NCBI GenBank assembly: GCA_018266075.1
Contig: JAFEBB010000013.1
Coordinates: 1 to 64,000, forward strand
Source of the DNA: Deltaproteobacteria bacterium
GTDB lineage: Bacteria; Myxococcota; Myxococcia; Myxococcales; SZAS-1
Reading direction: 5' to 3'
Length of the DNA stretch: 64,000 nucleotides
The notes under the pieces are model-generated. The model was not told the DNA's origin and made no database searches. It saw only the letters and a program-made list of their open reading frames with translations. Position 1 is the first letter of the stretch. Every line of letters starts with the position of its first letter. Positions 18,065 to 20,446 of this stretch are shown here, piece after piece. Both the position numbers and the translations under genes were made by a program.

Positions 18065-19387
18065 ATGACCCGACTTCGTGCCTTCGCGCTCTTCGCCGTC
18101 CTCCTCGCGGGCTGCGGCAACTCGAACACCGTGTCCTCGACCAGCTCGTCCACGGCGAGTGGCGGCGCCACCGGTTCTTCGTCGAGCTCGAGCGGGAGCT
18201 CCGGCACGTCGTCGACGAGCACCAGCGGAGGCTCGGGCACGACGTCGTCGTCGAGCGGCAGCAGCGGCACGAGCTCGAGCACGGGCGGCTCGAGCGGCGG
18301 CGACGTCGACGCCGGCTGCCGCTCCCCGCGCGATCCGGACGCGACGCGCGCGGTGGTGGTCTCGCATCCCTACCTGGCAGACGGCGGCGACTCGACGCTC
18401 TACGAAGTGATGAGCCTCGCGTCCGACGGCACGCTCACGCGCACCGGATTCACGTTCTCGATGCGCGCGTCGAACCAGGGCGTCATCGCCTTCACGCCGG
18501 ACGGCAAGCTCGGCTTCGCCCCGCAGGACGACGGCAGCGTGGGCGTGTTCCAGATGCTCGACGACGGCGGCGTCCAGGTGCTGAACGATGGCTTGAGCGG
18601 CTTCTACGCGTCGCACGTGGTCATGGCCGCGGACGGCATGCGCGCGTACGTGCTCGACGGCGACACGCTCTCGAACAACGGCGGCGTGTACGGCGTCGAC
18701 ATCGCTTGCGACGGCACCCTTGGCACGCCCACGTCGCTGGGCACGTTCAACACGCCCGGCGCCATGGCCTTCTTGCACGCCGCGCCTGACCAAGCGCTGG
18801 TGGCCGTCGGCGACTCCACGGGCTCGACCGCGACGGACGATCTGTTTTGGGCCGACTTCGCGTCGACGACGCCGACGACGTTGGGCAACACCCTCGTCTT
18901 CGACGGCGGCGCGATTCCTTCCGACCTGGCCATCACCGAAGACGACGCGTACGCGCTCGTGACCGACGACGGCATCTTCGCGGGCAACCGCGTGGGCGTG
19001 GCGAAGATCGGCCCGAGTGGCCTCGCGCCCGTGGACGTGCTGCCCACGCAGAATCCCGCGGGTGTGGTGACCTCTCCGTTCAACAACGCCGCGCTCGTCC
19101 TCAACTCGGACGGCACCGACGGCCTCACCCTGCTCTCGTACGACCCGAGCTCGAGCGCCACGCCCTTCACCGACAAGGGGCACATCACCTACGTGGGGAC
19201 GCATCCCCAGCTTCCGACCGAGGCCGTCGTCATTCGTCGCGGCGCGCTGCGTGGACGCGTCCTCATCGGCGAGCTGAGCGGCGTGCGGCAGGTGCAGTTC
19301 CTCGAGGATGGTGGCGCGGAGGACTTCTCCGTCGACAACGTCGATGGCTTCGACGGGATCGTCGGGGCCATGGGCGTGCAGCCGTAG
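18065..19387 (+). CDS. Ser/Gly-stalk lipoprotein, beta-propeller-like
   Basis: The 440-aa product has a lipoprotein signal ending in VLLAGC, then about 60 residues of Ser/Thr/Gly stalk (TSSSTASGGATG and similar). The globular domain has repeated short units with DGT or GDS turns (ASDGTLTRTGF, TPDGKLGFAPQDDGSVGVF, AADGMRAYVLDGD), suggesting a lactonase/YncE-like beta-propeller. ATG 18065 gives the signal peptide; the frame is open for 71 codons upstream inside pduL. Probably an outer-membrane-anchored surface protein of unknown ligand. Confidence 0.75.
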   Translation: MTRLRAFALFAVLLAGCGNSNTVSSTSSSTASGGATGSSSSSSGSSGTSSTSTSGGSGTTSSSSGSSGTSSSTGGSSGGDVDAGCRSPRDPDATRAVVVSHPYLADGGDSTLYEVMSLASDGTLTRTGFTFSMRASNQGVIAFTPDGKLGFAPQDDGSVGVFQMLDDGGVQVLNDGLSGFYASHVVMAADGMRAYVLDGDTLSNNGGVYGVDIACDGTLGTPTSLGTFNTPGAMAFLHAAPDQALVAVGDSTGSTATDDLFWADFASTTPTTLGNTLVFDGGAIPSDLAITEDDAYALVTDDGIFAGNRVGVAKIGPSGLAPVDVLPTQNPAGVVTSPFNNAALVLNSDGTDGLTLLSYDPSSSATPFTDKGHITYVGTHPQLPTEAVVIRRGALRGRVLIGELSGVRQVQFLEDGGAEDFSVDNVDGFDGIVGAMGVQP

Positions 19388-19438: not shown

Positions 19439-19827
19439 GGTGCGACGCACAAGAAGCGCTTCGTGAGCCACGCACCCGCGACTGCGGTGCTCAAGAAGCC
19501 CTTCTTCAGTCACGCCCCCGCGAGTCCGGCGCTCAAGAAGCCATTCTTGAGCCACGCACCCGCGACCGCAGAGTCCAAGAAGCCTTTCTTGAGCCACGCA
19601 CCCGAGCCCACAGAGTCCAAGAAGCCTTTCTTGAGTCACGCACCCGCGACTGCAGAGCTCAAGAAGCGTTCCTTGAGTCACGCACCGGCGAGTGCACCGC
19701 TCAAGAACCATTTCTTGAGCCACGCACCCGCGGGCGCAGAGTTCAAGAAGCAGCTCTCGAGACACGCACCCTTTAGTGCGTGGCCCAAGAAGCCGTTCTT
19801 GTGCGTTGCGCTCGACCGAACGACGCT
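19439..19827 (+). repeat. Nine 42-bp tandem repeats, each with a hairpin
   Basis: Units begin with CAAGAA at 19450, 19492, 19534, 19576, 19618, 19660, 19702, 19744 and 19786: nine copies with an exact 42-base period and no indels. Most units hold a small palindrome, for example CTCAAGAAGCCATTCTTGAG (8-bp stem, 4-base loop). In one plus frame the repeat reads as a 14-residue unit, KKPFLSHAPATAES, and many differences between units fall at third codon positions (CCC/CCA/CCT, AGC/AGT, ACC/ACT). That frame could start at GTG 19430 and stays open into the next gene. So the array may encode a repeat protein, or be a hairpin minisatellite. The rest of 19388-19951 shows no gene. Confidence 0.85.
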
Positions 19828-19951
19828 TGCATTCGAAGGTGCATCGCCAGCACACCCGGCACGTGAGGGGGCCCCGGTTCGATGTCCGCTTGCAGCCTCG
19901 ATATGTTCTCTTGAAGTGTGTCGGGCGAGACATGCACCGAGGGGGAACGCG

Positions 19952-20446
19952 ATGCCATCCTGGTCCAACAAGATTGGAGGCCACTCCGTGGAGGGCTTCC
20001 TGGCCCGCATCGAGCGCGGGCTGGTCGAGGACTTCCCCAAGGACAGCGCCGCGCCCTTGCACCTCAACGGCAGGCGCTACACGCGCGCCGAGCTCATCGC
20101 GCTGGTGCGGACGGAGCTCAGCCTCCACGAGGACGTGCGCCGCAAGACCCGTGAGCTCCGCGCGGCCGTCAAGAAGCGCAACGACGCCGACCGGGCGCAC
20201 CGCGCGCTCATCGAGAGCTTCCGCTCGCTGCTCTGGGGCAGCCTCGGGTTCGACTGGCCGCGGATGTGGAAGTACGGCTTCAAGCGTCCCAAGGCTCGGC
20301 GCAAGCTCACCGCTCGCGAGCGGGTGGCGGCCATCGCCAAGGGCAAGGCCACGCGCAAGCTCCGCAACACGATGGGCCCCAAGCAGAAGGCGAAGATCAA
20401 GGCCGAGGGGCCGGTGGTGCTGACGGTCGTCCCTGCCAAGCGGTGA
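19952..20446 (+). CDS. Basic conserved-looking protein, unknown function, 164 aa
   Basis: ATG 19952 has a strong ribosome-binding site (GAGGGGG six bases upstream). The protein begins MPSWSNKIGGHSVEGFLARIERG, contains a charged helical middle (ELSLHEDVRRKTRELRAAVKKRNDADRAHRAL) and ends very basic (RPKARRKLTARERVAAIAKGKATRKLRNTMGPKQKAKIK), suggesting nucleic-acid or other polyanion binding. The reading frame is continuous with the upstream 42-bp repeat frame, so a longer fusion starting at GTG 19430 cannot be excluded. The intervening 125 bases look non-coding in composition. I do not recognise the family. Confidence 0.6.
   Translation: MPSWSNKIGGHSVEGFLARIERGLVEDFPKDSAAPLHLNGRRYTRAELIALVRTELSLHEDVRRKTRELRAAVKKRNDADRAHRALIESFRSLLWGSLGFDWPRMWKYGFKRPKARRKLTARERVAAIAKGKATRKLRNTMGPKQKAKIKAEGPVVLTVVPAKR

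Follow-up and report, generated by a model that had tools for sequence, protein, structure and literature searches.

The window, by which we mean the whole 64-kb stretch of DNA analysed here, lies on contig C13 of a 7.84 Mb host genome assembled in 166 contigs (G000). The locus of interest comprises two genes and, between them, a tandem array of 42-bp units (Table 1). The upstream gene stops before the array and was taken as a separate gene; the array lies 5′ of the gene at 19952, at a distance of 125 bp.

Table 1. Features of the array locus, with positions in the window.
Feature	Position	Strand	Basis and remarks
Upstream gene, secreted lipoprotein-like, with Ser/Thr/Gly-rich linker	18065–19387	+	Open reading frame; codon score 0.58; weak LptM-like lipobox match
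42-bp tandem array	19439–19827	none	Tandem Repeats Finder, unit listing, autocorrelation; consensus CTCAAGAAGCCTTTCTTGAGCCACGCACCCGCGACTGCAGAG
Palindromic core AAGAA-N4-TTCTT in most units, 42 bp apart	19451–19800	none	Shuffle test, pair counts
Array–gene spacer	19828–19951	+	Non-coding in the frame of the array; Shine-Dalgarno-like GAGGGG before ATG 19952
164-aa basic coiled-coil protein	19952–20446	+	Member of an expanded orphan family; C-terminal motif TRxxRxTMGxxQK

Tandem Repeats Finder reported a period of 42 at positions 19450–19771 (7.7 copies, 0% indels, score 350), and a unit-by-unit listing gave eight full units (19466–19801) plus partial units at the edges. The units differ from each other by 23% on average, without any indel. 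By autocorrelation the self-identity of the array was 0.76 at lag 42, compared with a mean of 0.27 over all lags; at lag 21 it was 0.16, and the 42-bp array thus contains no 21-bp sub-period. Each unit corresponds to 4 × 10.5 bp, that is, to four helical turns. The sequence-only reading had described nine diverged units with an exact 42-base period. The period, the lack of indels and the divergence all held, but the number of full units is eight rather than nine. The array is a real sequence feature, and the earlier observation as a whole is partly confirmed.

A sister array of the same unit family occupies the end of contig C61 (43162–43585) and is 73% identical to the window array; the two have no flanks in common. 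Searching the window for promoter (sigma-70-type) and terminator signals revealed none, and no T-run terminators were present. The array had no match among plasmids, and we found no account of such arrays in myxobacteria in the literature. When 84,980 species genomes were searched with a pattern spanning two successive units, eight matches came up, in unrelated bacteria and one archaeon; none of them resembled the array by translated context, and one (Treponema, L034) was a 21-bp array of different sequence.

One explanation for a 42-bp period is that the array encodes a protein of 14-residue repeats (KKPFLSHAPATAES), made on its own or as a fusion with the product of the downstream gene, and a basic repeat protein was among the options offered by the sequence-only reading. 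Such a protein could draw on a frame that is open from TTG 19421 through the array to 20446, on a pN/pS of 0.64 that was the lowest among the six frames (0.83–1.25 in the other five, window and C61 arrays together) and is a weak signal at most, and on a codon score above those of the other forward frames. However, the differences between units did not concentrate at wobble positions as had been proposed: third positions of this frame held 39% of them against an expected 33%, and column permutation gave p=0.70 for the window array and p=0.26 when the C61 sister array was added. Judged by a codon model built from 318 host genes, the array frame scored −0.04 bits per codon with a GC3 of 0.74 (host genes, median 0.55 and GC3 0.91), an antisense frame scored equally, and the rare codons AGT, GCA, TTG and ACT recurred.

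The frame does stay open into the next gene, but this continuity is mechanical. Read in the frame of the array, positions 19844–19951 scored −1.12 bits per codon at a GC3 of 0.50 and are non-coding, compared with +0.52 for the next gene. One unit of the C61 sister array is 43 bp long and shifts the frame. Outside the sister array most paralog matches spanned the downstream protein alone, and the 24 related arrays described below displayed no coding phase (Fisher p=0.99). Because the wobble, codon-use, flank and paralog-coverage tests and the frame-shifting 43-bp unit agree, translation of the array is unlikely, and we consider the repeat protein itself highly improbable.

The palindrome in the consensus was stronger than in shuffled sequences (p=0.002). 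Among the 17 units of the window and sister arrays, the inner five pairs were kept in 14–17 units but the outer CTC/GAG pairs failed in 4–9, so the earlier claim that most units carry a hairpin stands for the inner pairs and lapses for the outer ones. We counted 0 compensatory (two-sided) changes in 8 pairs × 17 units. Being nearly invariant, the inner AAGAA/TTCTT pairs argue neither for nor against a hairpin. A single strand folded better than shuffles (z −7.4 as DNA and −8.4 as RNA), although tandem inverted repeats would yield such folding anyway. This strong RNA folding, together with the start of the array ~60 bp past the upstream stop codon, could be accommodated if the array were part of the upstream lipoprotein gene's 3′ UTR and acted there as structured RNA or as a row of terminators. 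The lack of compensatory changes, of any Rfam family near its curated threshold and of T-run terminators leaves this explanation with very little credence, as does the finding that related arrays track the downstream gene family and not an upstream one. A hairpin acting as a conserved RNA was rejected for want of covariation and of a near-threshold Rfam family. Palindromes were weakly enriched across the 24 related arrays (Fisher p=0.04; 0.0095 in the first set), a level at which we did not adopt them as a general feature of these arrays.

The gene at 19952 belongs to a family that no Pfam, NCBIfam, PHROG or PADLOC family covers (43 members were searched against Pfam). The genome of the window contains 10 clear members and weaker partial matches; 10, 29 and 41 matches were found in genomes G014, G008 and G019, respectively. 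The shared region of ~150 residues consists of a long helix and a C-terminal helix with the motif TRxxR(G/H)TxGxxQK. The model of the 19952 protein was confident (pLDDT 89.9) and had no structural match at E≤0.001 in a PDB/fold search. No DNA-binding fold was recognised in the family protein by fold search, a point against the phased-element reading developed below. The family proteins that we tried had no homologs on plasmids and phages. At their C-termini the proteins carry a low-complexity tail followed by a conserved short peptide, MNG(S/A)GH in several members here, and many members in other genomes end in GK; the tail peptide resembles a tag or docking peptide.

To compare arrays across the family, 51 loci were fetched by protein similarity alone, and arrays were called at a score of ≥120. 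At 23 of the 51 loci the family gene was preceded on its 5′ side by arrays, 24 in all, with periods of 21 (19 arrays), 42 (4) and 43 bp (1). No 21n array lay 3′ of a family gene, where the same 51 loci held one 15-bp and one 27-bp array. The interval from the end of the array to the start of the protein match ranged from 93 to 1073 bp and was mostly 150–350 bp. For comparison, 7 of 869 called genes (0.8%) in the genome of the window have such an array ≤1.1 kb on their 5′ side. At this base rate, which derives from the window's genome, the occurrence at 22 of 50 loci (window excluded) has a p of ~1e-32 and that at 4 of 8 loci within the window's own genome a p of ~3e-7. The enrichment of arrays at family loci is ~fifty-fold, with the empty 3′ sides serving as the control for G008, G014 and G019.

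About half of the family loci are without a clear array, which also speaks against the phased-element reading. In 27 loci where none was called, the top upstream self-match lags were 21, 42 and 84, with 63 in sixth place. Arrays at family loci comprise 3–27 copies, the longest having 27 copies of 21 bp. Close paralogs share units on the same strand: protein identities of 0.99, 0.93 and 0.74 were accompanied by unit similarities of 0.88, 0.74 and 0.83, while distant pairs had a mean unit similarity of 0.45. The array at the beginning of contig C28 is cut by the contig end and is the reverse complement of the array with which C23 begins. The breaks of C75 and C32 likewise fall either at a family gene or immediately 5′ of one; further cases are therefore hidden by short-read assembly. 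The analysis covers five genomes of one order, and we are confident that the array is non-coding and part of a class linked to the family.

Several other features were observed near family loci. In four spacers (L252, L255, L257 and L284) about three palindromes of the GGGTCCAATTTGGACCC or GGGGCCAATTTGGCCCC type lie between array and family gene. In four others (L291, L293, L303 and L250) a conserved block, TTGTCACGCTTTTC...GTGA(A/G)G, is found 73–155 nt before the start; it is promoter-like and lies on the gene side of the array. At C1:213892 and C15:31222 of G000 (L271 and L272), related 21-bp palindromic arrays (GAAACGTTTC-like) occur near distant partial family matches and sit just downstream of the matched part, not upstream.

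A small basic protein with tandem repeats immediately before its gene, in many diverse copies per genome, is also what a system resembling type III toxin–antitoxins would look like, in which the repeats would be transcribed as an RNA that neutralizes the downstream protein; in ToxIN and CptIN, too, the repeats come before the toxin and vary strongly from one locus to the next (PMC4627078). We consider this improbable here. None of 43 family members gave a ToxN-type or other Pfam match, and the fold search returned nothing at E≤0.001. A strict step of 21 bp is a length of DNA rather than of RNA, and copy numbers reach 27. Furthermore, array and gene are separated by a promoter-like block in four other loci, covariation of the stem is lacking and no terminator was found in the window. 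A link to REP/RAYT elements was likewise rejected: the genome has two Y1_Tnp genes, on C28 and C10, neither on the array's contig C13.

The spacing of arrays beyond the family was surveyed with Tandem Repeats Finder in 2.4 Mb of sequence (1.27 Mb of G000, 0.73 Mb of G007 and 0.40 Mb of G033), and arrays were sorted by codon score. Non-coding periods were 11, 18, 21, 30, 31, 36, 41, 42, 43, 63, 72 and 87; coding periods were 15, 18, 21, 24, 27, 30 and so on. Non-coding array families clustered at multiples of 10.5 bp (R=0.76, peak at 10.5–10.75; 16 families up to 63 bp, leaving aside those used as a query or found by one), compared with R=0.20 for coding arrays, in a helical-phase test that was post hoc and small (16–20 array families) and relied on coding and non-coding calls by the analyst. 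Resampling from the coding periods reached the observed non-coding R with p=0.00045. Periods 11, 31, 41 and 43 carry independent weight because they are not codon multiples.

The survey also revealed arrays with features of their own. In G007 one 42-bp palindromic unit family occupies three places (C128:33165, C74:71816 and C24:22001; L231, L230 and L232); two of these, compared in detail, have almost no common flank, and the final units of the two are more alike than either is to the units next to it. The end of C61 (L006 7600–7653) and the start of C17 (L082 325–378) carry unrelated units, of 42 and 21 bp, followed by a common 54-bp 3′ flank of 87% identity that holds an inverted repeat, CTGACA...TGTCAG; this flank was not found at the window array. 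Several of the surveyed G000 contigs begin within a tandem array, and 31-bp arrays occupy the contig starts C5:1-192 and C31:1-161 (L071 and L096).

Taken together, some of these results would suit a neutral minisatellite that grows by slippage or unequal exchange in helix-favoured steps and is carried along by gene duplication. Arrays of the 21n type are also found apart from the family, in G007 as well as on C11, C6 and C17 of G000, which is a point against the family link, and 42-bp arrays in G007 have no adjoining family gene. The dispersal of the G007 unit family over places of nearly unrelated flank, the free divergence of units and the lack of promoter or terminator signals at the array would be expected of such a minisatellite, and the clustering at 10.5 bp could come from array growth instead of function. 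Neutral growth does not readily account for arrays that lie 5′ of the gene in every case and 3′ of it in none, for their ~fifty-fold enrichment, or for the recurrence of arrays of independent sequence at paralogs that are just 20–30% identical. We regard it as unlikely, though far from negligible. A structured minisatellite between two genes had been the other option of the sequence-only reading; its non-coding and palindromic character stood, but the array belongs to a class with a 21-bp step located 5′ of one gene family.

The explanation that we favour, with about even confidence, is that the array is a non-coding, helically phased cis-acting DNA element upstream of the 19952 gene, coupled to the orphan family and likely bound by protein. 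Whole-turn spacing would place equivalent sites on the same face of the helix. The locus would be one case of a recurring module with two parts, an array with a 21-bp step and, some 100–700 bp beyond it, a gene of the orphan family; this module would have multiplied within genomes while its two parts diverged in step. Each array may be bound at a series of phased sites by the basic coiled-coil protein of its own gene, or else by a regulator specific to that paralog, and the resulting extended nucleoprotein complex might control the gene or organize the locus. Because array sequence tracks paralog identity, the family protein is the simplest candidate binder; for this putative self-binding mechanism our confidence falls somewhat short of even. 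The data point to a hitherto undescribed kind of pair, made up of a small basic protein and an array of DNA sites. A bolder version, which we hold to be rather unlikely, would see a chromosomal module present in up to ~40 copies per genome, each a private array stepped by two helical turns with a private paralog in mutually exclusive pairs; the phased nucleoprotein filaments built by these pairs would amount to a set of iteron- or centromere-like systems working side by side on one chromosome.

Should array and protein prove to be a functional pair, an orphan family that numbers tens of copies in some genomes of Myxococcales type would acquire its first testable role, and many paralogs would bring their own candidate DNA site. 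Periods near n × 10.5 bp offer a simple rule for separating non-coding arrays from coding repeats, and helical spacing explains how a period of 14 codons can pass for a protein repeat.

Several known systems combine tandem repeats with small genes. Bacterial minisatellites (VNTRs) are tandem repeats between genes whose units diverge and whose copy number differs from locus to locus; at family loci, in contrast, the arrays are limited to a position 5′ of genes from a single family and to periods that are multiples of 21 (with one of 43). Plasmid iterons are direct repeats of ~17–22 bp, set in helical register and located close to the gene for the Rep protein that binds them. Family-locus repeats similarly stand at whole-turn spacing (19 × 21, 4 × 42 and 1 × 43 bp), and the gene 3′ of them encodes their putative binder, but no winged-helix Rep domain was recognised, the proteins tried had no plasmid or phage homologs, and no replication function is indicated. 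As in ToxIN, CptIN and TenpIN, a gene for a small protein is preceded by tandem repeats that are diverse (here at 23 of 51 loci); in ToxIN and CptIN these repeats are highly different between loci, the ToxI repeat having 36 bases (PMC4627078). The present arrays differ in the absence of a ToxN, CptN or TenpN family match, in a step that fits the DNA helix and in many more copies. The stbDRs of plasmid R388, situated at the promoter of the operon that encodes StbA, are two sets of five 9-bp direct repeats with 2-bp spacing, thus 11 bp or one helical turn apart; StbA is the small DNA-binding protein that binds them (PMC3098194). Our arrays differ from the stbDRs in having 21–42-bp units in 3–27 copies, in being chromosomal with tens of diverged copies, and in that their binding is putative; in working principle stbDRs and StbA are nevertheless the closest system, with repeats spaced by helical turns beside a small-protein gene in both cases.
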